DNA of 44,533 nucleotides from Bdellovibrio sp. (GCA_013360185.1 JABWCO010000010.1:1-44533); one strand, 5' to 3'. Counted from the stretch's first letter, positions 1,649 to 44,533 are shown. Numbers and translations are program-made. The notes: generated by a model not told the origin, from the letters alone.

Positions 1649-2820
1649 GGACGGACTCCGATCATGTCCCAAAATTCTGGAAAACTTTTATTAATCACAG
1701 CTGGCTCTTCGATTTTAATATCGTGTCCTTTTAGTTTCATTAACGCCGCAGCCATCACCATGCGATGGTCTTTGTCCGGGTTGAACGCAACACCCTTGAC
1801 CAATGCCTGCTGCGGATTTCCATGCACAATCATACCATCAGCAAGAACCTGGTGCTGAATACCCACTAATTTTAAAAGCTCTGCCGTCTTGGCAATACGA
1901 TTGGATTCTTTGCTGACCAAGTGAGGAGCCCCATATAATCTTGAAATGCCTTGCGCCCAACTGCATAACACAGCAAGCACCGGAAACAAATCAGGCGACT
2001 GAAATAAATCAACATCCACCGCTTGCAACGGCAAACGATTTGTTGCGGTGAAAGTTGGACCCTCCACAGAGAAATCCACATGCATCCGCGCAAAGATGTC
2101 TTTGAAGACGAAATCAGGCTGAGTACTGCTGAAAGGAAAATTTGTCAGACGTGCTTCACCGGCCAGAGCCCCAGCAGCTGCCATGGTGAAAGCAGAACTC
2201 ATGTCGGGTTCCACTGTCCAATTTTGTGATGAAGTCTTTTGGCCTGCTGGAATTTTAAATCCTGTGTCGGTTTTTAGAATCTGCATGCCCAAAGTTTTTA
2301 ACATCTCTAAAGTGAGTAAAAAGTAGGACTCGGACACTTTTTCACCGACCAGAATAAATTCTAAATCAAAATCTAAAAGCCAAGCATTTAGAACTAAGGC
2401 TGAAGCGTATTGACTGGATTCGGTGGTATTTACTTGCAAAGGTGCCTTGGGTTGCTGCCAACCAGAGCTGCGTAAGTGCAATGCCCGGTTCTTAATTTCC
2501 GCTTGCACGCCTAGCTGGTGCATTAAATCCAGAAGACCTTTTTGCGGACGTTCTAAGAGGCGAGAACTCGCATCCAAAATATGCTCGCCCGCTTGGCGCG
2601 AAACTCGCAAAGCTAGAAAACGAAAGGTTGTGCCCCCCTCGCCACAATCAATGTGACTGCGGGTGGAAATTTTAGAAATACCATCGGTCATAAACCGCAC
2701 ATCGTCACAGGCCGAATGACCATTAAGAACCAAGGATGGAAAATAGCTTTTCACAATCAGGGCGCGATTGAAAACAGACTTCGAACCTGGAATGTCACCC
2801 TGAAAGCGAAAGTCAGCCAT
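1645..2820 (-). CDS. aroA: 3-phosphoshikimate 1-carboxyvinyltransferase (EPSP synthase)
   Basis: Transfers the enolpyruvyl group from phosphoenolpyruvate to shikimate 3-phosphate, the sixth step of the shikimate pathway, in the cytoplasm. The 391-residue protein has PGSKSVFNRAL near residue 11, GGTTFRFLA, SSQYASALVLNA, EPDMSSAFTMAAAGA, DLFQSPDLFPVLAVL, KESNRI and DHRMVMAAAL, covering the substrate-contacting motifs of the family. It is shorter than the usual 420-450 residues and diverged around the first domain, but no key motif is missing. The ATG at 2820 lies eight bases inside the end of aroB, and its own stop overlaps the start of the shikimate kinase fusion by four bases. The tight overlaps indicate a translationally coupled aroB-aroA-fusion operon. 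Confidence 0.93.
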   Translation of the reverse strand: MADFRFQGDIPGSKSVFNRALIVKSYFPSLVLNGHSACDDVRFMTDGISKISTRSHIDCGEGGTTFRFLALRVSRQAGEHILDASSRLLERPQKGLLDLMHQLGVQAEIKNRALHLRSSGWQQPKAPLQVNTTESSQYASALVLNAWLLDFDLEFILVGEKVSESYFLLTLEMLKTLGMQILKTDTGFKIPAGQKTSSQNWTVEPDMSSAFTMAAAGALAGEARLTNFPFSSTQPDFVFKDIFARMHVDFSVEGPTFTATNRLPLQAVDVDLFQSPDLFPVLAVLCSWAQGISRLYGAPHLVSKESNRIAKTAELLKLVGIQHQVLADGMIVHGNPQQALVKGVAFNPDKDHRMVMAAALMKLKGHDIKIEEPAVINKSFPEFWDMIGVRP

Positions 2821-3865
2821 TAAGTTCTTCTTCTTTCTGGCGACACACCTCGATTAAAACTTCGTCCACGGTCACCTCACGCACAAGGCAATGACCAGGT
2901 TTCTTTAAGAAAATAAAGCGCAAGGTTTCTGACGCCGTTTTCTTTTTGTCACTAAGAAGTAATTGTCTGAAGTCCTTAAGCACCGCCGAGCGCGTCCCCA
3001 TCAACTCATCTCGTAAAGGTGACAAGAGGTAACCCGCGAGCGGCAAGCGATGAAACTTTTGGTACTCTGCTTGGGTCATAATTCTTTTATGCAAGCTCCA
3101 GCGCAAAGCAAAGTCCAAACCATAATTGATCGCAATGCCATGAGGCAGTTGATAATAGACTTCTAGCACATGACCCATCGTATGGCCCAAGTTCAGAATG
3201 TGTCGGTGCCCTGACTTTTCTTCGGGATCTTTGCTGACAACTCTATTTTTAGCATCAATCGCTTTTGCTAAGTGCTTCCATAAAATAGAGGCATTCACTT
3301 CAAATTCTTTCGCCAAAGAACTCCATAGGGGGCCACCTGAAATCAACGCGATTTTTAAAAGCTCCCCGAACCCTTCAAAGGCCCGTGCTTCAGGCTGCGC
3401 CATCAGCAATGCTCGAGACAAAACAATTTTACTGGCTGGATAAAATGTCCCGATTTGATTTTTAGCCGAACCCACGTTTAAGGCGGTCTTCCCACCGTGG
3501 GCTGAATCAATGGCGGCAAGCCAGGTGCTAGGCATCTGCACCAGATTTACACCGCGCTTAAGGACACTAGCAACGAAGCCACCGAAATCCCCGACACTGC
3601 CACCACCAGCGACAACCACGGTCAAGTGACGACTGGAAGTTTGTTCGCAAAGTTTTACCAAGCGAGCTATGTGGCCAGGAAATTTATCAACGGATTTAAG
3701 CTGTTCGCCGGCCTTCACGGGATAGTGCAGGTCAAACTGCTGCATCCACTTTTTAAACGCCGCAGATTTTTTTGGCAAAACCTCGTCGTAAATAAGTAAA
3801 AGCTCTTCTCCTAGCTCAGAGACGCGTGGCAAATCAGAAACATACAGCAGTGCGCTTTTTTTCAT
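2813..3865 (-). CDS. aroB: 3-dehydroquinate synthase
   Basis: Converts DAHP to 3-dehydroquinate, the second step of the shikimate pathway, using NAD and a divalent metal. The 350-residue product shows the NAD-binding stretch VAGGGSVGDFGGFVAS, the segments PSTWLAAIDSAHGGKTALN and KNQIGTFYPA, then metal-ligand regions GFGELLKIALISGG, LNLGHTMGHVLE and PHGIAINYG. Length is normal. The start ATG at 3865 shares one base with the stop of the upstream coiled-coil gene (TAATG), and the stop lies inside aroA. With aroA and the downstream fusion it gives the complete set of activities from DAHP to EPSP in one operon. The N-terminus is less conserved than the core. Confidence 0.93.
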   Translation of the reverse strand: MKKSALLYVSDLPRVSELGEELLLIYDEVLPKKSAAFKKWMQQFDLHYPVKAGEQLKSVDKFPGHIARLVKLCEQTSSRHLTVVVAGGGSVGDFGGFVASVLKRGVNLVQMPSTWLAAIDSAHGGKTALNVGSAKNQIGTFYPASKIVLSRALLMAQPEARAFEGFGELLKIALISGGPLWSSLAKEFEVNASILWKHLAKAIDAKNRVVSKDPEEKSGHRHILNLGHTMGHVLEVYYQLPHGIAINYGLDFALRWSLHKRIMTQAEYQKFHRLPLAGYLLSPLRDELMGTRSAVLKDFRQLLLSDKKKTASETLRFIFLKKPGHCLVREVTVDEVLIEVCRQKEEELNG

Positions 3866-4281
3866 TATTCTTTATCTTTGAATTCGGCTTTAGCTTTTTT
3901 ATAAGAATCTGAAAGCGAGTCCCAAGCCTTACTCATGCCCGTTTTCATTTCAGTCCAAGCTTTACCAGAACTCTTTTTCATTTTTGTAAGATCTTGTTTG
4001 ATGCTGTCTTGCTTTTTTTCTAAAGAAGCAATTTGCTCTTTCATCTCAGACTTCGCCGCCCCCGTTTTTTTAGCGGCAGCTTCTTTTAATTCAGCAATTT
4101 CTTTTTTGAGATCAGAAAGTTTGCCTTCCATGTCTTTTTGAAATTGTTCTTTTTGCTCTTTGCTGTAATCAGCTGCAGCTGCGGCGGCTTGCGCTGTTTT
4201 TTCCTGCACGTCTTCCTTCGTTGTTGCAAAAGAAACGGAGGATAAAGAGAGAATCAGAAAAGATACGACGAAAGAATTCAT
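3865..4281 (-). CDS. Secreted coiled-coil protein of unknown function
   Basis: A 138-residue protein with an N-terminal signal peptide (hydrophobic residues about 4-19, likely cleavage after SFA) followed by an almost entirely charged, Ala/Lys/Glu-rich helix with heptad character from about residue 25 to the end. It probably forms a periplasmic coiled coil. I do not recognise a family. It starts at ATG 4281; its ribosome binding site lies inside a perfect inverted repeat. Its stop overlaps the aroB start by one base, so it appears to be the leading cistron for the aromatic pathway genes even though nothing in it suggests a metabolic role. Composition is low complexity, so similarity to apolipoprotein-like or YtxH-like helical proteins would be uninformative. 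Confidence 0.75.
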   Translation of the reverse strand: MNSFVVSFLILSLSSVSFATTKEDVQEKTAQAAAAAADYSKEQKEQFQKDMEGKLSDLKKEIAELKEAAAKKTGAAKSEMKEQIASLEKKQDSIKQDLTKMKKSSGKAWTEMKTGMSKAWDSLSDSYKKAKAEFKDKE

Positions 4282-4282
4282 G

Positions 4283-4307
4283 CTGGTCTCCTGTGGATGG
4301 AGACCAG
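4283..4307 (-). promoter_or_regulatory. Hairpin enclosing the ribosome binding site of the coiled-coil gene
   Basis: On the minus strand CTGGTCTCC (4307-4299), a seven-base loop, and GGAGACCAG (4291-4283) form a perfect nine-base-pair stem directly before the ATG at 4281. The only Shine-Dalgarno candidate, AGGAG, is in the loop edge and 3' arm. No U-tract follows, so this is more likely a translational control hairpin than a terminator. Confidence 0.55.
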
Positions 4308-4321
4308 TTTACATTAGGGAC

Positions 4322-4639
4322 TTATTTTACTTCAAGAATATTGAGCTGAGTCGCCTCGGCTGTGACGCTTACAGGCTTTTTTTCTTTTAAGCTTGTTTCA
4401 AGTTTTTTACGAATGCCGTCAAACTCTGCCACATCCCGGCGTAAATAGTAGCTGCCTTTTTCTTTCATAAACAAAACCACTATTCCATCATCATCGTCGC
4501 GCAATTTTTTAACAGTGTCTGTGATTGTGGTCCTTTGCTCTTCAGCAGCGGCAGGCTTGCGTGGCTGGGAAGCGGCTTGTGACATTGTCGTCATCCCAAA
4601 GACCATCAGTGCTAGTGTTACTAGGAAAGTTTTTTTCAT
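4322..4639 (-). CDS. Small secreted protein of unknown function
   Basis: A 105-residue product with a clear signal peptide (MKKTFLVTLALMVFGMTTMSQA, cleavage probably after SQA near residue 22) and a mature part of about 80 residues that is rich in Lys, Glu and Asp, including a DDDDG run. No domain is recognised; the mature sequence looks like a small alpha/beta fold ending in a short strand. It lies 16 bases after msrQ and 40 bases before the coiled-coil gene, so it probably belongs to the same transcript. A periplasmic location is inferred from the signal peptide. Confidence 0.7.
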   Translation of the reverse strand: MKKTFLVTLALMVFGMTTMSQAASQPRKPAAAEEQRTTITDTVKKLRDDDDGIVVLFMKEKGSYYLRRDVAEFDGIRKKLETSLKEKKPVSVTAEATQLNILEVK

Positions 4640-4655
4640 ACGTCACCCCTTTTCC

Positions 4656-5294
4656 TTAAGATAAGCTCTTATCGGATTTTCGGGAAGCCCCACGAAAAGA
4701 CTCGACCTTGGTCTTAAGAAATCGCCCCAGGCGGAAGAGCTGAAAGGGCACTAGTGGCAAAGTCATCGCGGCAAACAGCAAGAGGTTCGCTTTTTCGATC
4801 AAAAAAACATGGCCTAAGATCGCCAAGCTGACCCCATGAATAAGTCGATGCAGAAGCTTCCACTTACGCCCGAAAAGTTTTTGACTGAAGTTATTCGAGG
4901 TTAAAGTCAGAATCCAAACAACGACCGCCGCGATAAATCCTAGAGTTAAATAGTTCTTGGTAAAGATCTGCGAAAAGGCCATGGGTAAAAAGCCTTCTTT
5001 GGCAAAATAGAAAAAGACATGGCCCAACAGATACAAACCCGAGGCCACACCTAGCCAGCGACGCTCCAGAAAAAACCAACGAGTCCAAGGGGGCCAATTT
5101 TTTTTCAAAGCCAGACAAATGCCAATCACAAGATTGATAAGAATCAAAACCAAAGTGACATAACCGGTTTCGGTATTTAACTTCGACACTGGCTCAGCAC
5201 CCAAGCCTCCAGTAAGGCCCAAGGCAATCCACCATAACAAAGGTCCGAACAAAAGCAGACGCAGGACCCAGCGCAAAAATTTTGTTTGTGTCAT
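4656..5294 (-). CDS. msrQ: Heme-binding membrane subunit of the methionine sulfoxide reductase MsrPQ
   Basis: About 212 residues, with six hydrophobic segments of the ferric reductase-like transmembrane family. MsrQ carries heme in the inner membrane and passes electrons to periplasmic MsrP for repair of oxidised methionines. Segments such as GLYLLGHVFFYF and KLLHRLIHGVSLAILGHVF contain the histidines expected to ligate heme. ATG at 5294 is preferred over the in-frame GTG at 5306, because AGGTGG sits eight bases before it. The gene is divergent from msrP, which begins 55 bases away; in E. coli the two form one operon. Downstream, the small secreted gene follows after 16 bases. Confidence 0.85.
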   Translation of the reverse strand: MTQTKFLRWVLRLLLFGPLLWWIALGLTGGLGAEPVSKLNTETGYVTLVLILINLVIGICLALKKNWPPWTRWFFLERRWLGVASGLYLLGHVFFYFAKEGFLPMAFSQIFTKNYLTLGFIAAVVVWILTLTSNNFSQKLFGRKWKLLHRLIHGVSLAILGHVFLIEKANLLLFAAMTLPLVPFQLFRLGRFLKTKVESFRGASRKSDKSLS

Positions 5295-5349
5295 TCGCAA
5301 TACCACCTGACACTAGATTCACACACTGCCCGTGCAAAAGGAAGACACA

Positions 5350-6333
5350 ATGCTCATTAAGATTCCACCATCCTGGAAAATCAAAGAAAGCGACGTCACC
5401 CCTGAAGATATCTATTTTAATCGCCGAACTCTTTTAAAGGCTGCGGCCTTGGGCGGATTAGGTCTTGTGGCAGCGCAAACTATTCCTGAAGCTTGGGCAA
5501 AAGCAGAGCTTAAAAAATTATCTTATAAAACGAATGCCCTTTACAAAGTTTCGGAACCCGATCGTCCTCTGACCAAAGAAGATTTGGCGACGAGCTATAA
5601 TAACTTTTACGAATTCAGCCTGGATAAAAGCGAAGTCGCTAAAAAAGTTGAGGCGTGGAAAGTGCAGACGCCGTGGAAGATTGAAGTGAAGGGCCTTAAG
5701 GGCCCGGATAAAACTTTAGACGTCGACGACCTTGCAAAACTTGTCGGCGGCTTGGAAGAGCGCATTTACCGATTCCGTTGTGTCGAAGCGTGGTCCATGG
5801 TCGTGCCCTGGACTGGCTTTCCCTTGGCAGAGCTGATAAAAAAACTTGAGCCTTCACCGAAAGCAAAATTTGTTAAATTTCAAACTTTCGCCGAACAAAA
5901 AATCGGTACGAATATGAAGAACCTGCCCTACTATCCTTGGCCTTACACCGAAGGACTGACGATGGAGGAAGCTCTTCACCCGTTAGCTTTTATTGCGACA
6001 GGGATGTACGGTCACGAATTGCCAAAACAAAATGGAGCACCAATTCGCTTGGTCGTACCTTGGAAGTACGGATTTAAAAGCATCAAGTCGATTGTCAAAA
6101 TTGAATTCACGGAACAACAGCCGATGGGGTTGTGGGAAAAGTTGGCCTCTAGCGAATACGGATTTTACGCTAACGTAAATCCTAAAGTTGAGCACCCGCG
6201 CTGGAGCCAAGCCACTGAGCGAGTTTTAGATGGCAAGTTTTTCCCCACAAAAATTCCGACGCTGATGTTTAATGGCTATGAAAAAGAAGTGGCTTCGTTA
6301 TACAAGGGCCTTGATCTGACAAAAAACTTTTAA
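5350..6333 (+). CDS. msrP: Periplasmic protein-methionine-sulfoxide reductase, molybdopterin subunit
   Basis: A YedY/MsrP-type molybdoenzyme that reduces methionine sulfoxide in periplasmic proteins with electrons from MsrQ. From ATG 5350 (AAGGA upstream) the 327-residue product starts with the family signature KESDVTPEDIYFNRR, which includes the twin-arginine pair (residues 25-26), then a hydrophobic stretch to about residue 48. The molybdenum-ligand Cys is about residue 144 in YRFRCVEAWSMVVPWTG. YGHELPKQNGAPIRLVVPWK and YGFKSIKSIVKIEF are typical of the sulfite oxidase fold. An in-frame GTG at 5332 is possible but would add six residues not seen in relatives. Tat export means it is folded with cofactor before secretion. 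Confidence 0.93.
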   Translation: MLIKIPPSWKIKESDVTPEDIYFNRRTLLKAAALGGLGLVAAQTIPEAWAKAELKKLSYKTNALYKVSEPDRPLTKEDLATSYNNFYEFSLDKSEVAKKVEAWKVQTPWKIEVKGLKGPDKTLDVDDLAKLVGGLEERIYRFRCVEAWSMVVPWTGFPLAELIKKLEPSPKAKFVKFQTFAEQKIGTNMKNLPYYPWPYTEGLTMEEALHPLAFIATGMYGHELPKQNGAPIRLVVPWKYGFKSIKSIVKIEFTEQQPMGLWEKLASSEYGFYANVNPKVEHPRWSQATERVLDGKFFPTKIPTLMFNGYEKEVASLYKGLDLTKNF

Positions 6334-6356
6334 TGTTTCTTGCTGTGACAGGAGCC

Positions 6357-7022
6357 CTAAAGGCTCCAGTCGATTTCAGCGATTCCCTTAGAACGCAAGT
6401 AAGCATTGGTCTTTGAAAAAGGCTTCGTCCCGAAAAAACCGCGATGTGCAGACAACGGCGACGGATGAACGCCTTCAATCACCAGATGCTTTTTGCGATC
6501 GACGAAGGCTGCTTTTTTTTGCGCGTAAGCTCCCCACAAAATAAAAACTAGGTTTTCTTTTTCATCATTTAGAGTATGGATCACTTTATCAGTGAACTCT
6601 TCCCAGCCTTTTTTCTGGTGAGCTGCGGCCTTGCCGTCTTCGACCGTCAATACGGCATTTAGCAACAATACACCTTGCTGTGCCCATTTTGTTAAGGAGC
6701 CACTTTTGGGCAGAGGCACCCCGACATCGTCGCGCAGTTCTTTAAAAATATTTTGCAAAGAAGGGGGAAAGCGCACGCCGTCCCGCACAGAAAAGCACAA
6801 GCCATGCGCTTGCCCCGGGCCATGATAGGGATCTTGCCCCACGATGACGACTTTGACATTTTCAAAGGGCGTAAAATTCAGCGCCGCAAAGTATTCATCC
6901 CCTTGAGGGTAAATCGTTTTGCCTGCTTTGTATTCTTGCGCCAAAAATGCCTTCAAATTCAGCATTCGCTCGCTTGCAAATTCGCTCTCTAAGCGCTTTT
7001 TCCAGGATGTTTCGAGTTTCAT
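6357..7022 (-). CDS. ung: Uracil-DNA glycosylase, family 1
   Basis: Removes uracil from DNA after cytosine deamination or dUTP misincorporation, starting base excision repair in the cytoplasm. The 221-residue protein has the water-activating motif GQDPYHGPGQAHGLCFS (catalytic Asp at about 64) and the leucine-loop motif HPSPLSAHRGFFG near residue 186, with LLLNAVLTVE and VFILWGAYAQ between. Length and motif spacing are normal. It converges on msrP, with a short GGAGCC/GGCTCC inverted repeat (6351-6367) over its stop codon that could help end transcription, though no U-tract follows it. Confidence 0.96.
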   Translation of the reverse strand: MKLETSWKKRLESEFASERMLNLKAFLAQEYKAGKTIYPQGDEYFAALNFTPFENVKVVIVGQDPYHGPGQAHGLCFSVRDGVRFPPSLQNIFKELRDDVGVPLPKSGSLTKWAQQGVLLLNAVLTVEDGKAAAHQKKGWEEFTDKVIHTLNDEKENLVFILWGAYAQKKAAFVDRKKHLVIEGVHPSPLSAHRGFFGTKPFSKTNAYLRSKGIAEIDWSL

Positions 7023-7190
7023 TTCTGTTTTGATTTTTCACATCTCATTCTGGTACGTGACGTAGGTCCAGGTTCGGGATTCTAATGCAAACCTATTGGT
7101 TTTCAAATTATTTTTTAATGCCAGCGGATCTTGACCAGACAAATAACGAACCCATTGTTATTATAAAGAAAGAGGAAAAGGAGGCCGCCC

Positions 7191-7592
7191 ATGACGACTC
7201 TTCTAAATCCCACCATAGAAGTTCTTGAGAAAAACCCGGAAGTTAAGTCTTTCATCTATCAGCAGATCGTCGATTTTGAGCCCTTTGTGACGCCGCAAAC
7301 CATCGTCGCAGTCATCGCTCGAGACCCGAAAAAGCTGGCGCTTCAATACGAAACGGAAGGCAAAGAGTTTTCCAAGGAAGACTTAAAAAAGTTGTATCGT
7401 ATTGCGATCTCCTTGAAAGAAGGAGATACGACAATTGAAGCCGAAGGTGTTCACCGAGATATCTTTCAGGCCATCAAAATGGCAAAAGACAATCTGATCA
7501 AAGAGCTGGTCGATATTCAAGACTCGGTCGTAAGCTCGCAGGATCGATTGATTGAAGTCAATCAATACTTGCAACCGCAAATACTGCACTAA
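7191..7592 (+). CDS. Putative HPF/RaiA-like ribosome-associated protein
   Basis: A 133-residue cytoplasmic protein with a strong Shine-Dalgarno (AAAGGAGG, 7178-7185). The segment YRIAISLKEGDTTIEAEG followed by the helix DIFQAIKMAKDNLIKEL matches the strand-strand-helix pattern of the sigma-54 modulation / hibernation promoting factor fold, and the preceding helix and strand also fit. Sequence identity looks low, so the assignment rests on pattern rather than signature residues. It is a stand-alone gene closed by an intrinsic terminator. A second, clearer member of the family is at 31733. If correct, it would bind the small subunit and stabilise idle ribosomes. Confidence 0.5.
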   Translation: MTTLLNPTIEVLEKNPEVKSFIYQQIVDFEPFVTPQTIVAVIARDPKKLALQYETEGKEFSKEDLKKLYRIAISLKEGDTTIEAEGVHRDIFQAIKMAKDNLIKELVDIQDSVVSSQDRLIEVNQYLQPQILH

Positions 7593-7609
7593 TTCGTTCG
7601 GTTCCGATG

Positions 7610-7637
7610 GGGCCTCTTGCAAAAGAGGCCCTTTTTT
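7610..7637 (+). terminator. Intrinsic terminator of the HPF-like gene
   Basis: GGGCCTCTT (7610-7618), a GCAA tetraloop (GNRA class) and AAGAGGCCC (7623-7631) form a perfect nine-base-pair stem, followed by six T residues (7632-7637). Confidence 0.93.
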
Positions 7638-7639
7638 AC

Positions 7640-7871
7640 TCCCAAAAATGAAGCTTTTTAAATATGGTGTTTCTCAACACTGGATCTGGCGCTGCGCTTT
7701 TTTGGGGTTTAGAGTGTAAGAGTAGTTAGGAATTGAAACGGTATCTCTAAAGAGATTCTGCCGGTGTGAGGAAGTGATAAGTCATGGATTCGCGTCGAAG
7801 AGTCCAAAGCCTTTGGGGAGTATCGTTCGAAACGGGATTTGGTCAAACTGATCGAGTCCCGTTTCCATTTT
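7640..7871 (+). ncRNA. Candidate structured small RNA in an intergenic region
   Basis: The space between the HPF-like terminator and the convergent M14 peptidase gene holds no credible gene. It contains the palindromes ATCTCTAAAGAGAT (near 7742-7756) and CCAAAGCCTTTGG (near 7804-7816), then a terminator hairpin (7829-7865) with a short T run pointing right. A terminator for which no upstream gene exists suggests an independent short transcript starting somewhere in 7640-7740. No convincing promoter was found, so the 5' end is unknown. Confidence 0.35.
7829..7871 (+). terminator. Intrinsic terminator-like hairpin
   Basis: GAAACGGGA (7829-7837) and TCCCGTTTC (7857-7865) form a perfect nine-base-pair stem with a 19-base loop, followed by CATTTTTAAAA. 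The T run favours the plus strand. On the minus strand it might still help end the M14 peptidase transcript. Confidence 0.55.
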
Positions 7872-7882
7872 TAAAAGGTCCG

Positions 7883-8761
7883 CTAGTGATCCAGTGCTAC
7901 CGGCAGAAAACTTGTCGGCTCAGCCGCCGTGTTTTCTTTTACTTTTCCCGCATCAATTTTTACCAAAGTCCCAATGATATCTTGGAGTTTTTCAAACGGT
8001 GCTAAGTTCGGCGGTAAGTTTTCTTTTAATTCCATCGTTAGAACCGGAGTTTGGCGCTCAAGCCACATATAGCGCCCCAAGCTGCCTGGGTAATTACCCA
8101 AAGACCTCCAAGGCAAATAATCAAACTTCGGCGGAGGAGAAACTTTCGGGCCATCGAAATCCAAAACTTTCAGTGGCGTATGCACAGAAACAACAAAGTC
8201 AGGCTGGAAATCTTCGATATGATGAACCGCACATTTTGTTTCTGGCTCACTGGCTGCTTCCGCCCCAGGGAAACGACGCGGATTTGATTTCGTTGTGCGC
8301 TTCCAATTTTCAACAGCGCCGACATCCCAATCTTTGGTTGGAAAATTCCGATTGATATCAATCTTATTGGCATTCGTGCGTGTCTTTAATTTCACCCCGT
8401 CCGGATTTAAAACAGGAACAACACGCCACGAGTTGCGCGGATCGATACTTTCCAAACGTTCCATCCAATAACGTCCCACGGTCCCCGCATGAGTTTCATC
8501 GCCATGAATTAAACTGAAGACTAACACTTTTTTTGCGCCACTCGTCGTGGCCATTTTTTCATAGTGATAGATGGCGCGCCCTTCGGCGCTGACACATCTC
8601 GCATCTACTTTGACCTTGTCACAGGCCTGTTTGAGCAACTTGTCATCTGTTACCCCTGGGAATTTTTTAAGATCGCTGATGCAGTCCTGGGCCGCGTTCG
8701 GAAAATCTGCTTTCGCAGTGAATACGGACAAGACTGACAGAATTATAATGAATGTTTTCAT
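7883..8761 (-). CDS. Secreted M14-family zinc carboxypeptidase, murein peptide amidase-like
   Basis: A zinc carboxypeptidase of about 292 residues. The signal peptide is MKTFIIILSVLSVFTAKA, so the ATG at 8761 is preferred over ATG 8770. Zinc ligands are the HGDE pair (HxxE) in VFSLIHGDETHAG and a later His in FVVSVHTPLKVLDF; RTNANKIDINRNFP carries the substrate-carboxylate arginines and TMELKE the general-base Glu. Layout resembles MpaA, which cleaves the gamma-D-glutamyl-diaminopimelate bond in wall peptides, but MpaA is cytoplasmic and this one is exported, so a periplasmic role on peptidoglycan of self or prey is plausible. It converges on the candidate RNA region. The exact bond cleaved cannot be read from the sequence. 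Confidence 0.82.
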   Translation of the reverse strand: MKTFIIILSVLSVFTAKADFPNAAQDCISDLKKFPGVTDDKLLKQACDKVKVDARCVSAEGRAIYHYEKMATTSGAKKVLVFSLIHGDETHAGTVGRYWMERLESIDPRNSWRVVPVLNPDGVKLKTRTNANKIDINRNFPTKDWDVGAVENWKRTTKSNPRRFPGAEAASEPETKCAVHHIEDFQPDFVVSVHTPLKVLDFDGPKVSPPPKFDYLPWRSLGNYPGSLGRYMWLERQTPVLTMELKENLPPNLAPFEKLQDIIGTLVKIDAGKVKENTAAEPTSFLPVALDH

Positions 8762-38378: not shown

Positions 38379-39284
38379 TTACCACTCGATGTAGACAGCA
38401 CCAGGACCGCCACCCGTTGCCAAAGTCATATATGTATTGGCTTTCGATCCCCCTTGCCCAGGTTCCGAATTAAAAAAAACGGGTACCTGGGTCGCTGAGC
38501 CGGAATTCATTCCACCAATAATTTTCATTGTTGAGTTAGCGAAAGCTCCCTCGCCAGCGTAACTGATGGGACTATATCCAGCACCACCGACACCCCCAGA
38601 GCCGCCGCCTCCGCCACCGCCATAGGGATGCGCTACTGCTCCACCAGCAGTGTTGCTGCCGCCTAGTACTGATCCCGCACCGGAACCACCCGTAGATGAC
38701 GTGGCATTGCCGCCAGCTGTGCTTGCCACAGCACCGCCGCCTCCGCCTAAGTTTGGACCACTCGTTCCACCGGCTGCCGTTGCGGAGCCACCAGTGCCCC
38801 CAGTGCCGCATGGACCATAGCCTCCACCACCAGCCCAACCTGAGCCATAAGCCGTGCCACCACCACCGCCTCCACCCACAAAAATATTGAGGGTCTCGCC
38901 AGCAGTAACATTTAACGACTCAGAAACCTTCGATCCGGAGGTGCCATCGGAAACTGGATTCCCCGAGCCTCCGTTTCCTCCATTCGCAGACACCAAAACC
39001 GTTGTGGATCTTTTTATGCAGCTGCCACCACCGCCACCGCCACCACTTGGATTGGCTCCGCCACCGCCACCGCCGCCGATGACCATGACTCGTATTTTGG
39101 TTACTCCGACAGGAACTGTCCAAGTCGTGTCTTTGTTAAAATCCATATAGCCGCCCTGCAAACCACTACTAGAAGAATTTGAAATTATTTTTTTCCATTT
39201 AGGCCCGGCATAAGACAACGAAGGGAAGGTGCTAGCTATTGCTGTGCTCAAGATAAGAAAAAAAACTCGCAGAGATCGTTCCAT
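38379..39284 (-). CDS. Secreted glycine-rich protein (paralogue A, long form)
   Basis: About 301 residues from ATG 39284 (GGAG seven bases before); the signal peptide ends at SYAG. Shared family parts are GPKWKKIISNSSSSGLQGG, DTTWTVPVGVTKIRVMVIGGG, a poly-Gly tract, GGSCIKRSTTVLVSANGG, SLNVTAGETLNIFVGGGG, YGPCGTGG, and a C-terminus of GGGPGAVYIEW. About a third of the residues are Gly, in runs of up to nine, with Ser, Thr and Ala between. Two Cys residues (SCIK and YGPCG) are conserved in three paralogues and may form a disulfide. Third gene of the fibre operon; a terminator follows. Function is not known; an adhesin tip is proposed in the findings. Confidence 0.75.
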   Translation of the reverse strand: MERSLRVFFLILSTAIASTFPSLSYAGPKWKKIISNSSSSGLQGGYMDFNKDTTWTVPVGVTKIRVMVIGGGGGGGANPSGGGGGGGSCIKRSTTVLVSANGGNGGSGNPVSDGTSGSKVSESLNVTAGETLNIFVGGGGGGGTAYGSGWAGGGGYGPCGTGGTGGSATAAGGTSGPNLGGGGGAVASTAGGNATSSTGGSGAGSVLGGSNTAGGAVAHPYGGGGGGGSGGVGGAGYSPISYAGEGAFANSTMKIIGGMNSGSATQVPVFFNSEPGQGGSKANTYMTLATGGGPGAVYIEW

Positions 39285-39316
39285 ATATTTCTCCATGATA
39301 ACCAATAAATCCTTTT

Positions 39317-39997
39317 TTAAACATTACCACCAGATATAGACAACGCCACCACCACCGCCGCCGGCAATATAGTAAGTAGTTGTGCCATCGGGAGTATATA
39401 GGGGTTCGCAACAGAGCCTCCCTCGCCTGGCTCCATTTTAAAAACGATACCTCCATAGCAACCCAAAGTGTTCGAGCCCGTGACGCCAAATACTGAAGTA
39501 CTGGAAAAACATCCTCCGATGCCTCCTGCGAAAGGGGTTACTACGCCGCCAGTACCACCAATTCCACAAGCTCCATAGCCACCCGCACCACCAAATACGG
39601 CAGTCGAAAAGGAGACGGCACCACCGCCACCGCCGCCGACAAAAATATTAAGAACACTGCCAGGAGTAACGGTTAAACTTGTTTGCGTCTTTGTGCCGCG
39701 TTTGCCATCTTTACCGCTATCTCCTCCAGCACCACCATCGGCAGAAACGAGAACCGTGGATCCTGCATCTTTAATACAGGATCCGCCGCCGCCGCCAATG
39801 ACTGTAACAAATAATTTACTAACACCAGTAGGCACCGTAAAAACTCCGTCCTGATTGAACTCTACGAAGCCACCTTGCAAGCCGGAGCTAACGGAGTTGG
39901 AGATTACTTTTTTCCATTTGGGAGCGGCTTGAGCAAATGAAATTGTCGCGCAAACCACGACCAGTGCCCTTCCGAATTTTTTTAAAATGCTTTTCAT
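39317..39997 (-). CDS. Secreted glycine-rich protein (paralogue B, frameshifted)
   Basis: About 226 residues from ATG 39997 (GGGAGC before). The signal peptide ends SFAQA, then APKWKKVISNSVSSGLQGG and the family core with GGGGSCIKDAGSTVLVSADGG and YGACGIGGTGG. After EPGEGGSVANPY the reading frame diverges from the family: the final 26 residues (beginning ILPMAQLL) are not Gly-rich. Reading the sequence two bases out of phase from the same point gives YTPDGTTTYYIAGGGG and a terminal GGGGVVYIWW followed by TAA at 39324-39326, exactly the paralogues' ending. The shift coincides with TATATA (39395-39400), so a two-base gain there is the simplest cause. Either a real mutation, a phase-variable switch or a sequencing error. 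Confidence 0.75.
   Translation of the reverse strand: MKSILKKFGRALVVVCATISFAQAAPKWKKVISNSVSSGLQGGFVEFNQDGVFTVPTGVSKLFVTVIGGGGGSCIKDAGSTVLVSADGGAGGDSGKDGKRGTKTQTSLTVTPGSVLNIFVGGGGGGAVSFSTAVFGGAGGYGACGIGGTGGVVTPFAGGIGGCFSSTSVFGVTGSNTLGCYGGIVFKMEPGEGGSVANPYILPMAQLLTILPAAVVVALSISGGNV
39395..39400. repeat. TATATA tract at the frameshift point
   Basis: A (TA)3 tract lies where the coding frame of paralogue B leaves the family consensus. (TA)2 at this spot would restore the conserved C-terminus. Confidence 0.6.
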
Positions 39998-40042
39998 AAA
40001 CGCTCCCAATCCATCGTGCGTTTGCTGCTGCCAACTAAAAAA

Positions 40043-42574
40043 TTACGGCTGACAAGACAGAATATTTCCGTTGCTGTCCACGGCGATGGCGCCTACACCA
40101 ATCGATGTACAATCGTCTTCTTCAGTGACAACTTTTAACTTCGGATATCCGTTAGCATCGATCACAGTGGTTCCGGAAATTGCAACGGCTCCAGCGACAT
40201 CCAGCTTAGCTCCTGGGTTTGTCAGTCCTATACCGACATTGCCCGTGGAAGAAATCCGCATTCTCTCTCCCATGCCTCCGGCAGCAGCGTTAGTTGAAAA
40301 TGCCATATATCCAGCAGTGTCGACATCAGTCACATTCTCTTTTGCTCCGAAGATACCCGAAAAAGTTTGTCGACCTGTGGATCCCGAAAAATACCGACCA
40401 GCAAAAGAGATAGAGCCACCTTTATCCTTAGCCGCGGCTTCATTACTTTGAATTGTAAAATTCGCAGTACTACTTGAAGCTGGATTACGAGTTGGTCCGG
40501 TAATTGACATTTCGTAAACATTGTCACCCGCTGTATTGGTAGTTCCGTTAAGAATATCAAGAATCGCCATAGGGTTCGCATTGGCGATTCCGACATTCCC
40601 CAAAGAATAATTAATTCCGCCCGTTGCAGAACTCCAGTATGAAGCTGTTGCAGGTAAGTCCGCGGCAGTTAAGGCTCGGAAGCTTGGTGCGGCACTGCCG
40701 CCACTGCTAGGCCCTGCAAAAATAAGATTTGGCCCTACTGAATTAGTCCCTGTGCCGCCGTTTGCAATTGGAAGAACTCCGCTTACATCAGCCGCTAAAT
40801 CAACGCTAGATTTTGCTGCCAAAGAGCCAATAGTACCTAAATCCGATATCTGCGCTTTTGTAATCGAGATATTTTCACAGGCTAAGCTGTCCGTTGCTGA
40901 ATTGAAGGTCAAAGTTTTATTCGCACCACACGATGCAGACAATGCTTGCGCGCCCGTCACGTTAGAGCGCAGATCTAACATCGATACAAAGCTGGGAACC
41001 AGGTTACCCGAAGCAAAGCGCAAGACCTGTCCTGTAAATGACGGAGTCACGCTCACCGGAACGCCTTTAATTTTACTTATCTCGACGTCCACTGTGCCAG
41101 AGGCAAAGTTGCTCGAAGCCACATCGCCTTGCAAAGTTGTGATGTAATTGCCTGCGGGTTGTTTTGCATTGAAAATTGCAAAATCCGCGTTATCTAAGTA
41201 TCCATCCACTGCGGCAGTTGCCTTCGGCAATGAAACTTTCGGCGCAGCCGGCGTGCTCGAATCAACAGTCAATGGCGCATCGGCCGTCACTGAAGTCACA
41301 CCGCTGGCTGAAAGCGTTTTCCACTCTAACTGACCACTGGTGGCACTCATTCCTAAAATTTGCCCGCTACTGCCTTGAGTATTCGGCAAAATCCACGTGT
41401 AATCGGTAAAGCTTGCCGGCGCCTGCACTGTCACACGATTCGGAGTCACATTTTCAATATATAAATTGCGCGTATTCATTTGTGGACTGGTGATTGAACC
41501 AGAAGTATTAATACTTGCCGAGCTGCTAAATGCAGACGCCACGACGTTCGTTAATTTAGATCCATCAACGGCAGGTAATTTCGCATCACCGCCCATTTGT
41601 ACGATATTATTTGCTCCTGTACCAACATCAACTGCTAACGTTCCTGTTGCAGTGATTGGATTTCCAGGGCTTGAAGAGTTCAATAATCCAGTGCCGGCAG
41701 TCACACTTGTCACTGTTCCCGAACCACCACCGGCGGCAGTCACGCACACTAAGGCGCCAGATCCATCATTTTGTAGGAACTGGTTGGCTGTACAAGTTGG
41801 TAAGTTAGATTTAGCGAAAGCACGCACCGTCGGATCTGATTCCGAAGTAATCGCAGAAACTGGAGCCCATGTGCCCCCCGTCCAACCAAGCACTTGCCCG
41901 TTAGAAAGTGCTGGAACACTGGCGCCATTAATTTGGCCCGCCTTCGCATACTGGGTCGTGGTCCCATTAAGTAATTTTGTTAATTCCGTAAAGTCCGCAG
42001 GTGATAAGGTTGAAGCCGCACCACCACTTACCCGAACAACAGATGTCGCAGGAGTTCCACCAATATTTTGTGCATCATAGGCATTCACTGCTAAAGGCAC
42101 AAAGCCCACGTCGGTCAATGGCAGAATTTGTTCGCCCGCCGCCGTCTGATCATCAAAACTTACCTGTAACTGACGTTGATCCAACATTTGTGGAGTGTAA
42201 GAGTGACCACCACTGTTACACGTGAACAGCGGATAAGTACCACGACTTAAAGTCAAAGACGTGTTGTTTGAAAAAACCGTCTCCATAGAAATTCCTGGAT
42301 CTGCGGCTGTTCTTGTGCCGGCGCCATCCCCGATCGGAATAACGAAAATACCATTACTGTTGACCATGGAAACTTCGCGAGTTTCTTCATACATCAAACA
42401 TTTGCCTGGATTTGGACTGTAAATTCGAATTTTAAAAACCACGCGAGTCGCTTCAAGAGGCTTATCATCCGCATCTAAAATGCGCCCGTGATAAGTGAAA
42501 ACTGCGCCACCGAAAGCCAGTGACGGCATTACCAACGCAACCAATGCTGTCAGAAAAACGTTCCAAGTTTTCAC
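40043..42574 (-). CDS. Secreted trimeric fibre-like protein (Bdellovibrio MAT-type)
   Basis: An 843-residue protein with a signal peptide (cleavage near SLAFG) and an N-terminal beta-sandwich-like region starting FTYHGRILDADDKPLEATRVVFKI. Then follow low-complexity Gly/Ser/Thr/Ala stretches that look like a phage-fibre shaft (AKAGQINGASVPALSNGQVLGW, GTVTSVTAGTGLLN and VLPIANGGTGTNSVG), and a C-terminus with NVGIGLTNPGAKLDVAGA, typical of phage tail-fibre and collagen-like structures, ending GNILSCQP. This organisation matches the mosaic adhesive trimer fibres of Bdellovibrio, recalled as prey-recognising surface fibres. The start is GTG 42574 with AAGGAG six bases upstream. It heads an apparent operon with two glycine-rich genes. 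Confidence 0.82.
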   Translation of the reverse strand: MKTWNVFLTALVALVMPSLAFGGAVFTYHGRILDADDKPLEATRVVFKIRIYSPNPGKCLMYEETREVSMVNSNGIFVIPIGDGAGTRTAADPGISMETVFSNNTSLTLSRGTYPLFTCNSGGHSYTPQMLDQRQLQVSFDDQTAAGEQILPLTDVGFVPLAVNAYDAQNIGGTPATSVVRVSGGAASTLSPADFTELTKLLNGTTTQYAKAGQINGASVPALSNGQVLGWTGGTWAPVSAITSESDPTVRAFAKSNLPTCTANQFLQNDGSGALVCVTAAGGGSGTVTSVTAGTGLLNSSSPGNPITATGTLAVDVGTGANNIVQMGGDAKLPAVDGSKLTNVVASAFSSSASINTSGSITSPQMNTRNLYIENVTPNRVTVQAPASFTDYTWILPNTQGSSGQILGMSATSGQLEWKTLSASGVTSVTADAPLTVDSSTPAAPKVSLPKATAAVDGYLDNADFAIFNAKQPAGNYITTLQGDVASSNFASGTVDVEISKIKGVPVSVTPSFTGQVLRFASGNLVPSFVSMLDLRSNVTGAQALSASCGANKTLTFNSATDSLACENISITKAQISDLGTIGSLAAKSSVDLAADVSGVLPIANGGTGTNSVGPNLIFAGPSSGGSAAPSFRALTAADLPATASYWSSATGGINYSLGNVGIANANPMAILDILNGTTNTAGDNVYEMSITGPTRNPASSSTANFTIQSNEAAAKDKGGSISFAGRYFSGSTGRQTFSGIFGAKENVTDVDTAGYMAFSTNAAAGGMGERMRISSTGNVGIGLTNPGAKLDVAGAVAISGTTVIDANGYPKLKVVTEEDDCTSIGVGAIAVDSNGNILSCQP

Positions 42575-42672
42575 GTTGAACTCCTTGTGAAAATTCTATG
42601 GAATATTTTTGGGCGTACGTAAAAACATGAGTAAGTTTATACAGATACGACCAAAAACGACCACTCTTGTTA

Positions 42673-42688
42673 CGTATCGGTCAAAGTG
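42673..42688 (-). promoter_or_regulatory. Sigma-28-like promoter element of the fibre operon
   Basis: The minus strand reads CACTTTGACCGATACG about 100 bases before the fibre start. The ACCGATA part resembles the sigma-28 (FliA) -10 GCCGATAA. The same box with two changes (CACTTTGTCCGATAAG) precedes the other glycine-rich operon. The -35 region is a poor match. Confidence 0.5.
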
Positions 42689-42787
42689 GGAGCACCTAAA
42701 GGGGGATGTCTCGTAAAGAAGCGAACAAATGGGAATTTCTTGATAAAGCGATGGATCTTTGAATTGGCGACCGTCTTGAATCAAGAC

Positions 42788-42813
42788 TTTGGTGGTGAAC
42801 ACTCACCACCAAA
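42788..42813. terminator. Hairpin at the stop codon of glycine-rich paralogue C
   Basis: TTTGGTGGTGA (42788-42798), loop ACAC, and TCACCACCAAA (42803-42813) form a perfect 11-base-pair stem that includes the stop codon. On the minus strand GTCTTGATTCAAGAC follows, a second small palindrome. No U-tract follows. Confidence 0.45.
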
Positions 42814-43387
42814 TATACACCACACCGGGGCCGCCACCCGTAGGCATCATATTTCTTCCTGGCTCGCCAGGCTCTGAGGTGTAGTAACTTCCGTGCGAAC
42901 TATCATACGCTTGACGACTGGACCATGCCCCTTCTGAGTTACTCCCGGTACCGCCCGTGCGAGCGACGCCCCCGACCCCACCAGACGCTCCACCGCCACC
43001 ACCAGCAATCCCGCCTCCTAAACCACCGCCCACGGTGCTTGTACCACCTAGGCCTCCATTATTTCCGCCTGGGGCCCCGGAAGAAGTCGTGGCGCTTCCC
43101 CCGGCGACAGCCTCGCCGCCGCCTCCACCGCCACCATTATTGGTAGAAAATCGTCCACCTCCGCCGGCGCCGATGACCATGACTTGCACTCGAGTCACCC
43201 CCGCCGGAACAATCCAAGTCGAATCTTTGATGAACTCAACGAACCCTCCTTGAAGCGAAGAACCGGCTCCAGAAATAATTTTTTTCCATTTGGGTGCTGC
43301 AATGACTGCAGGAGATAAAGTCGAAACAAATAAAAATGATACAGGCAACAACCAAGGAAATGCGTCCCTTTGAGTTTTAGTAATCAC
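42803..43387 (-). CDS. Secreted glycine-rich protein (paralogue C, short form)
   Basis: About 194 residues from GTG 43387 (GAGGAG seven bases before; an upstream in-frame ATG at 43414 is less likely). The signal peptide ends at VIAA, then APKWKKIISGAGSSLQGG and STWIVPAGVTRVQVMVIGAGG. It lacks both conserved Cys residues and the poly-Gly cores are shorter, with GGGGGGEAV and GGLGGTSTVGGGLGGG. The C-terminus EPGRNMMPTGGGPGVVYIWW follows the family. It is second in the operon after paralogue D (40-base gap). A long hairpin spans its stop codon. The ligand is unknown. Confidence 0.75.
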   Translation of the reverse strand: MITKTQRDAFPWLLPVSFLFVSTLSPAVIAAPKWKKIISGAGSSLQGGFVEFIKDSTWIVPAGVTRVQVMVIGAGGGGRFSTNNGGGGGGGEAVAGGSATTSSGAPGGNNGGLGGTSTVGGGLGGGIAGGGGGASGGVGGVARTGGTGSNSEGAWSSRQAYDSSHGSYYTSEPGEPGRNMMPTGGGPGVVYIWW

Positions 43388-43426
43388 GAACAAACTCCTC
43401 GCAAACAAGATCAAAAAAATAAGCGC

Positions 43427-44341
43427 TTACCACCAAATATACACGACACCGGGGCCGCCGCCTGAGCATGCTAAAGTGCAGGAACCTGCTTCACCTGGGT
43501 CTAAGCGCAACGTTATATATCCACCGGAGCTGTCTTTTGCGTAGGTGGTATTTTTCCCGACTTCTCCAGCATACCCGTAAAAGCCTCCAGCATTGTTTGC
43601 AGCACAAAAACCACCAACACCGCCAGAACCGCCGCCACCACCACCGTTAGTATTTGATGTGCCACCTGACGATGCCGAGCCTCCTGAAGTTCCTGAATTA
43701 TTAGCTCCGATGCCACCCGTGGAGGTCATCGCATTTCCCCCAGCCACAGCCGCTGCAGCTCCGCCACCACCACCAAGGTTGGCACCACTCGTCCCTCCGG
43801 CCGAGGATCCTGAGATCCCTCCTGCTCCGCCAATTCCGCAAGGGCCATAACCACCCCCACCACCAACGACTGTGCCGCCCCAATATCCCCCGCCGCCGCC
43901 GCCACCACCGACGAGAATATTTAACGTTTCACCAGGTGTTACAGTCAGTGATTGAGAAACTTTGTCGCCGGGATTCGGTGGAGTCAAAACGCTTGAACCA
44001 TTCATGCCACCACCGCTACCACCATTCGCTGAGGCCAAAACCGTGGACGAGCGCTTAAGACAACTGCCTCCGCCGCCACCACCGCCACCGTATCCAGTGC
44101 CTTTTCCGCCGGCCCCGCCGCCGCCACCAATGACAAGAACCTTCAGCTTGGTCACGCCTGTAGGCACAACCCAGGTGCCATCGCGATTGAACTCTAAAAA
44201 GCCGCTATCAACAGAACTTGCCGAAGGATTTGAAATGATTTTTTTCCATTTGGGGGCTGCCAATACCAGGCTCGGGAAAAACAGCGCCGTCGAACACGCC
44301 ACGGCGAAACTTGAAAGTATTCTTTGCTTTTTAATTCGCAT
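43427..44341 (-). CDS. Secreted glycine-rich protein (paralogue D, long form)
   Basis: About 304 residues from ATG 44341; the GGGGGG upstream is a weak ribosome binding site. The signal peptide ends at LVLA, followed by APKWKKIISNPSASSVDSG, DGTWVVPTGVTKLKVLVIGGG, GGGGSCLKRSSTVLASANGG, SLTVTPGETLNILVGGGGGG, YGPCGIGGAGG and a C-terminus of GGGPGVVYIWW. It is closest to paralogue A, with the same long Gly/Ala middle (NLGGGGGAAAAVAGGNAMTSTGG). It heads the first glycine-rich operon and has a FliA-like box 50 bases upstream. The codon usage is GGT/GGC rich because of Gly runs; it gives rise to proline-rich antisense open frames, which I do not consider genes. Confidence 0.78.
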   Translation of the reverse strand: MRIKKQRILSSFAVACSTALFFPSLVLAAPKWKKIISNPSASSVDSGFLEFNRDGTWVVPTGVTKLKVLVIGGGGGAGGKGTGYGGGGGGGGSCLKRSSTVLASANGGSGGGMNGSSVLTPPNPGDKVSQSLTVTPGETLNILVGGGGGGGGYWGGTVVGGGGGYGPCGIGGAGGISGSSAGGTSGANLGGGGGAAAAVAGGNAMTSTGGIGANNSGTSGGSASSGGTSNTNGGGGGGSGGVGGFCAANNAGGFYGYAGEVGKNTTYAKDSSGGYITLRLDPGEAGSCTLACSGGGPGVVYIWW

Positions 44342-44390
44342 AAAAAAGCCCCCCTGTCCTAAAAGACGGCTCCACAAAATGTGAAACCTT

Positions 44391-44406: not shown

Positions 44407-44431
44407 ACTCAGATCTAAAATAGATAATTTT

Positions 44432-44515
44432 ATGCGAATTGCCCGGAAAAAAGTGTTACCGAAAGCGCCTCAAAACGAGATCCAGATTTTCGGTCCCAAG
44501 CTCATTGCCCGTTAA
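44432..44515 (+). other. Short open frame at the right edge
   Basis: A 27-codon frame starting ATG 44432 and ending TAA 44513-44515, without a convincing ribosome binding site. The peptide is basic. AGTGTTACCGA occurs inside it (44452-44462) and again just after it (44518-44528). Reported because nothing else explains this stretch; it may belong to a gene beyond the edge. Confidence 0.2.
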
Positions 44516-44533
44516 ATAGTGTTACCGAGCAAG

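Follow-up and report, generated by a model that had tools for sequence, protein, structure and literature searches.

Glycine-rich proteins encoded beside a MAT-type fibre of Bdellovibrio as candidate separate fibre tips

Why would a predatory bacterium encode a fibre among several secreted glycine-rich proteins, and could these proteins be the tips of that fibre? The question arises from a 44,533-nt stretch of Bdellovibrio sp. DNA (GCA_013360185.1 JABWCO010000010.1:1-44533; hereafter, the window), one of 227 contigs (C194) in a 3.54-Mb draft genome, G000, that is 96% complete. A first-pass annotation had likened the cluster to the gp37 fibre and gp38 adhesin of T-even-like phages. The explanation that we favour, with a probability of roughly 0.6, is that separate genes supply the fibre with tips; these would dock via an N-terminal tag and a C-terminal cap and act in a gp37/gp38-like way with a different fold and a different docking element.

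The gene cluster and its N-terminal tag

All genes of the cluster are on the minus strand, with the transcription order P1, P2, fibre, P3, P4. The features are as follows:

43427-44377, minus strand: P1, 316 aa; proposed secreted, free-standing glycine-rich tip protein with mature start APKWKKIISN and 5 Cys
42803-43414, minus strand: P2, 203 aa; proposed short secreted glycine-rich tip protein, mature part without Cys
42575-42802, no strand: P2-fibre intergenic stretch; an 11-bp terminator-like hairpin (42813-42788) overlaps the P2 stop
40043-42574, minus strand: fibre of 843 aa from the MAT (mosaic adhesive trimer) family, in which Bdello_MAT_N spans residues 21-183
40046-40129, minus strand: fibre C-terminal cap, VTEEDDCTSIGVGAIAVDSNGNILSCQP, with Cys822 and Cys841; proposed docking site
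39317-40009, minus strand: P3, 230 aa; proposed glycine-rich tip protein encoded immediately after the fibre, with its final portion out of frame
39390-39403, minus strand: P3 frame-loss site, CCCTATATACTCCC; the shared ending is in another frame from here
38379-39305, minus strand: P4, 308 aa; proposed glycine-rich tip protein whose mature form starts with GPKWKKIISN and whose model is a TNF-like sandwich with a Gly-rich insert
39063-39206, minus strand: P4 tag and first strands, representative of the N-terminal tag common to all free-standing copies

The gaps between genes (P1-P2 12 nt, P2-fibre 228 nt, fibre-P3 33 nt, P3-P4 11 nt) are consistent with two transcription units, in line with the two operons proposed earlier, but the cluster has no excess of promoter- and terminator-like sites over shuffled sequences. 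P1 is the first gene of the P1-P2 unit, and the contig ends 156 nt upstream of it.

The core of the earlier description, a MAT-type fibre with four secreted glycine-rich paralogues, stands with small corrections. The identities of P2, P3, and P4 to P1 (49%, 51%, and 59%) directly support, and on sequence grounds confirm, the homology of the four flanking genes, whose products are predicted to be secreted (signal peptides were judged by eye). The fibre likewise has direct support as a MAT: as is typical of that family, it has a Bdello_MAT_N domain after its signal peptide (NCBIfam NF053851, E 9e-38, 129.6 bits versus a cut-off of 60). Glycine makes up 24-33% of the mature P1-P4 proteins, and the longest run is 8, not the nine reported. 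An APKWKK start was said to be common to all; it is present in P1-P3, but P4 reads GPKWKK. Two cysteines had been noted in three of the four, and a conserved pair (SC[IL]K and [PA]CG) does occur in P1, P3, and P4, although the totals are 5 in P1 and 4 in P3. The GGG-G-VYI-W terminus attributed to all four is found in the other copies but not in P3, in which the conserved ending, after TATATA, runs in another frame; P3 is therefore either a disrupted gene or an assembly error. Four is the right count for the window, but the APKWKK-type tag is on five copies in the genome, the fifth of which (G000:C185) has no adjoining fibre.

Profile A7, which represents the N-terminal tag region, was run against 369 genomes of the phylum. 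Full- or near-full-length tagged copies were found only in G000 (7), G021 (2), G020 (1, cut by a contig end), G073 (1), and G072 (5). The system is thus rare (tag in 5/369 genomes, of which most are fragmented). All 16 free-standing copies have the tag ([AG]PxW[KRQ][KR]), its Trp is invariant, and it is conserved across families. A conserved tag with a diverged body is directly supported: among the five APKWKK-type copies of G000, identity at non-Gly positions is 64% in the tag region and 30% in the body, and signal peptide identity is 24% over all positions. Comparing the DNA of the window copies with that of a reference copy gives identities of 83-93% over the tag (29 nt) and 68-92% over the 3' end (37 nt). 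One might guess that bodies could recombine between these conserved DNA ends.

The loss of frame near the end of P3, the absence of about one-third of the body in P2, and the draft state of the genome would suit a set of duplicated fibre tips that is decaying and retains little function. In P1, P2, P4, and the C185 copy, however, signal peptide, tag, and terminal strand are intact, and the conservation of the tag spans families, so we rate decay as very improbable.

Capped fibres, their neighbours, and fused forms

Every fibre next to a tagged gene terminates in a short motif between two cysteines (CxxIGxGAxAxDxxGNxxxC-like), here termed the cap. The window fibre has 66 aa after its last shaft motif, but length past this motif does not cleanly separate capped from tipped MATs, and we therefore do not take length by itself as a sign that capped MATs have no tip. 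We searched for the cap in 141 genomes from the order; MATs occur in 102 of these, and 687 were counted. This recovered seven partnered fibres and one new fibre, G072:C13, at E 1.2e-6; all remaining matches were weak (E ≥0.005). The strong matches in the 141 genomes are thus the eight fibres that have a glycine-rich gene next to them. Seven of the eight pairs served to find or define the cap. The G072:C13 fibre was found by the cap profile alone, and the gene after it encodes a tagged glycine-rich protein, so that this pair is a true out-of-sample prediction from the cap. This fibre is collagen-like; the contig ends before its N-terminus is reached, and it is therefore counted as a capped fibre rather than as a MAT.

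The linkage of such paralogues to fibre genes, first seen in the window, recurs in relatives. Overall, there are eight pairs of a capped fibre followed by a glycine-rich gene, in five genomes of two families (G000:C194, which is the window, G000:C204, G000:C208, G020, G021, G073, G072:C18, and G072:C13). In G021, two tips follow the capped fibre in tandem, and in G072:C18 one small lipoprotein-like gene lies between the fibre and the glycine-rich gene. The window genome has 12 MATs, the four at C192, C173, C197, and C201 being cut by contig ends, and three tagged genes beyond the window: the C204 copy comes right after a MAT, the C208 copy overlaps the end of another MAT by ~35 nt, and the C185 copy (3826-4704) sits alone among housekeeping genes. 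As controls, neither a cap nor a glycine-rich neighbour was found in 21 MATs of complete or near-complete Bdellovibrio-genus genomes or in the five complete uncapped MATs of G000. A glycine-rich neighbour in 8/8 capped versus 0/26 uncapped fibres has a chance p of ~5e-8, a value that is descriptive only, given that six of the eight fibres were used to define the cap and that the loci are related by descent. Weak matches to profile A3 in prophage-tail, pilin-like, and lipoprotein contexts, which are generic glycine-rich domains with no tag, were not counted.

Tagged genes adjoin a fibre in 12 of 16 cases, and the four orphans (G000:C185 and three in G072) are all in genomes with a capped fibre. 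It was directly observed both that the pairing is repeated and that caps and tags co-occur: capped fibres and tagged genes are found in the same 5/141 genomes. Co-variation of cap and tag is weak and marginal (Mantel r 0.35, exact p 0.047, 7 pairs). The orphans, this marginal co-variation, the draft genomes, and the four G000 MATs at contig ends limit these counts. One of the G000 MATs cut by a contig end (C173) has a shaft very similar to that of the window fibre, and a second such cluster may therefore be missing from the assembly.

In some MATs, a related glycine-rich domain (PF21722) occurs within the fibre chain itself. We observed at least seven such fusions, usually with the domain as the C-terminal tip. 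Bdello_MAT_N and PF21722 are both above their curated cut-offs in one chain in G008, G077, G088, and G063, and in another order in G344. By locus, L068, L061, L065, and L077 pass both cut-offs with the glycine-rich domain at the very C-terminus, as does L167 with another order. Profile A3 adds fusions in G047 and G013 (by locus, L057 and two L063 ORFs), and in one L063 chain another domain comes after the glycine-rich domain. The strongest argument for the separate form being a tip is that the domain which tips some MATs in cis is encoded, after capped MATs, by a gene of its own. The fused tips and several free-standing relatives score above the cut-off for PF21722 (Gly_rich_2). The window paralogues fall below it (16.1 and 13.5 bits at best versus a gathering cut-off of 24.3); because they do so while their homologues L053 and L054 pass, they are relatives rather than formal members of this family.

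The main competing explanation is that the glycine-rich proteins act on their own, as secreted adhesins or as part of a surface coat, and are co-regulated with the fibre but never join it. The four orphan copies without a neighbouring fibre are in keeping with this, as is the presence of a signal peptide on each copy, and free lectins commonly have TNF-like folds, the type predicted here (see below). But free adhesins would not lead us to expect capped fibres and tagged genes in the same 5/141 genomes, a related domain fused to MATs, or a conserved N-terminal tag that is absent from the fused forms (all six fused chains examined). Independent action is thus unlikely in our judgment, although it is the alternative to which we give the most weight.

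Predicted fold and comparison with known systems

Models of P4 and of a G021 tip were generated using AlphaFold2 with a six-sequence alignment. The P4 model (mean pLDDT 57) has a confident beta-sandwich (approximately residues 20-110 plus the last strand), with low confidence for the tag (1-16) and the glycine-rich insert; the G021 tip model has the same strand order at lower confidence (47). The two models agree on a predicted TNF-like beta-sandwich with a provisional glycine-rich insert. The insert itself is modelled at pLDDT <50, and polyglycine-II packing within it would be expected from homologues.

A Foldseek search of the PDB with P4 gave no significant match (best E 0.05), and many phage “glycine-rich domain” proteins matched P4 in Foldseek at E 1e-6 to 1e-3. 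Candidates from Foldseek were re-aligned for structural ranking. The best match to the P4 model is the Pam3 fibre protein gp24 (Z 6.7, rmsd 3.9 A, 120 residues; a Z of <8 is not decisive alone). For the G021 tip model, the top 15 include ALK/LTK, Pam3, and the Bxb1 tail tip, ranked above unrelated rows (Z up to 7.3). Pam3 gp24, the Bxb1 tail tip, and the ALK/LTK glycine-rich domains are among the best matches of both models (Z 4.7-7.3). The glycine-rich (TG) domain of ALK/LTK is a TNF-like sandwich with a glycine-rich insert in an animal receptor. It gives the best matches of the G021 tip model, but has no link to a fibre.

The head of Pam3 gp24 (PDB 7YPX/7YFW), which binds the host, is TNF-like plus glycine-rich (PMC9608196), an architecture also predicted for P4. 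However, in gp24 a single chain provides both the head and the helical shaft of the trimeric fibre, whereas the Bdellovibrio head has no shaft of its own. This comparison bears on the possibility that the glycine-rich proteins are assembly chaperones of the fibre end, remaining outside the mature fibre like T4 gp38 or Pam3 gp25/Tfa. The predicted fold fits the host-binding head gp24 and not the chaperone gp25, other MATs have this kind of domain as a cis tip, and a chaperone would not be expected to come in up to four copies per fibre whose bodies have diverged. These points outweigh, in our view, a gene position just after the fibre gene, which is also where phage chaperones are encoded, and weak PHROG “tail fiber assembly” matches that are located in the poly-Gly stretch, making a chaperone role improbable.

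How far, then, does the proposed gp38 equivalence hold? In S16, gp38 docks on gp37 via conserved tryptophans of its N-terminal domain (PMC6851490), and T2 gp37 accepted PP01 gp38 only with the T2 gp38 N-terminus on it (PMC12892980). The T2/S16 gp37/gp38 systems (PDB 6F45) and the Bdellovibrio cluster share a glycine-rich adhesin gene beside the fibre gene, a conserved N-terminus, and variable loops, and the invariant Trp of the tag fits the picture of docking by N-terminal tryptophans. A separate glycine-rich gene beside a fibre gene is found at all eight capped-fibre loci, but the phage and PDB sequence searches described below show no homology to gp38. The architectures differ as well: gp38 has a helical attachment domain and a beta-helix core, compared with a short tag and a predicted TNF-like sandwich in the Bdellovibrio tips, and the Bdellovibrio cluster has several tips per fibre, each secreted with a signal peptide. 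S16 gp38 (6F45) is absent from the Foldseek and VIA-align 2 listings, which does not exclude likeness. The equivalence thus survives as an analogy of function (glycine-rich, conserved N-terminus, variable body, encoded beside the fibre), with a modelled fold that differs from that of S16 gp38 and is closest to Pam3 gp24 and ALK/LTK.

We found no match to P4 by tblastn in 50,697 phage records, and the tag pattern gave 25 pattern matches in IMG/VR, none of them a relative. Recent transfer from a sequenced phage is therefore not supported. Profile A2 matched no phage adhesin among PDB sequences; sequence searches of the PDB yielded only an antibody linker and a ribosomal protein, both rejected as chance poly-Gly matches.

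MATs of B. bacteriovorus are known to vary in their C-terminal tips, some of which have TNF-like folds (Caulton et al. 2024; PMC10769870). The MATs described there either carry the tip within the fibre chain or terminate in an S74 domain (PMC10769870). The window fibre likewise has Bdello_MAT_N but, unlike the described MATs, its tip is apparently a separate gene. Glycine is nowhere mentioned in the text of the MAT paper (PMC10769870), and a full-text literature search for Bdellovibrio glycine-rich proteins and a fibre, with coverage that excludes most subscription journals, returned no paper.

A proposed fibre with separately encoded tips

Under the explanation that we favour, the MAT protein would form a trimeric shaft that ends in the short Cys-bracketed cap in place of a globular cis tip. 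Each glycine-rich protein would be exported by its own signal peptide and fold as a TNF-like sandwich, the glycine-rich insert displaying variable loops to prey, and would dock on the fibre end through the conserved N-terminal tag. Because several different bodies have one tag in common, one shaft could carry alternative tips, which may bind different prey surface molecules. The physical docking, its stoichiometry, and the recognition of prey are steps that we infer. A bolder version, which we hold only tentatively and consider somewhat doubtful, is that tips with a common tag, including those encoded far away, are interchangeable on one shaft with one cap, so that prey range is combinatorial, and that tag and cap types insulate the fibres of one cell from one another.

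The MAT, the PF21722-like domain, and the TNF-like/glycine-rich fold are each known; their split into a capped shaft and tagged secreted tips appears to be new. The two-part layout of fibre and tip is known from phage tail fibres and, as far as we have found, is undescribed for the fibres of predatory bacteria.

By which molecules Bdellovibrio recognises so many prey is a long-open question, and the tips of known MATs are built into the chain. Separate tips, if real, would explain how one fibre could serve several prey receptors, and the tag and cap are a concrete docking pair that is testable in vitro. If this is true, a phage solution, i.e., a fibre with a detachable glycine-rich tip, arose in, or was taken up by, a cellular predator.

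Possible fibre companions of other kinds and a repeat in the same genome

Two other mosaic adhesive trimer (MAT) fibres of the draft genome G000, from which the window comes, are followed by secreted or putatively exported proteins of other kinds.

Features at two further MAT loci of G000
L096 (G000:C209), 5557-8448: MAT preceding the DUF1554/endostatin-like paralogues
L096 (G000:C209), 4245-5572, minus strand: a tandem pair of secreted paralogues carrying DUF1554/endostatin-like domains, after the MAT
L098 (G000:C199), 1078-2124, minus strand: DUF7483-domain protein after a MAT

The DUF1554/endostatin-like pair may represent a second class of fibre companion encoded by genes of its own. The DUF7483 protein has an apparent Tat signal. 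In the window itself, two imperfect copies of GGTAACACT(A/T)TTT..CGGGCAAT lie at 44430-44533, near the contig end and upstream of P1, one of the four secreted glycine-rich paralogues around the fibre.

Glycine-rich genes in other genomes

At L069 (G073:C37, 7264-12135), a frame change splits a MAT into 86 aa and then a 1324-aa ORF; a secreted glycine-rich ORF lacking the WKK tag (the [AG]PxWKK-like mature N-terminus) follows at the contig end. Three APTWKK-tagged glycine-rich orphans with no fibre nearby (L160, L161, L162) occur in G072, a genome that also has a capped fibre whose neighbour carries the same type of tag. Elsewhere, three glycine-rich genes in tandem (L164, G246:C139, 8129-9872) share an N-terminus and have no signal peptide, in surroundings that look like a prophage tail region.

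A similar layout with a different tag

L163 (G259:C57, 1-3522) belongs to a different order of the phylum. Here two secreted PF21722 (Gly_rich_2) proteins come after a fibre-like ORF and have a common N-terminal tag, ASNLxQFFPSS, that differs from the WKK tag. The layout resembles that of the window, as if it had arisen there with another putative docking sequence.
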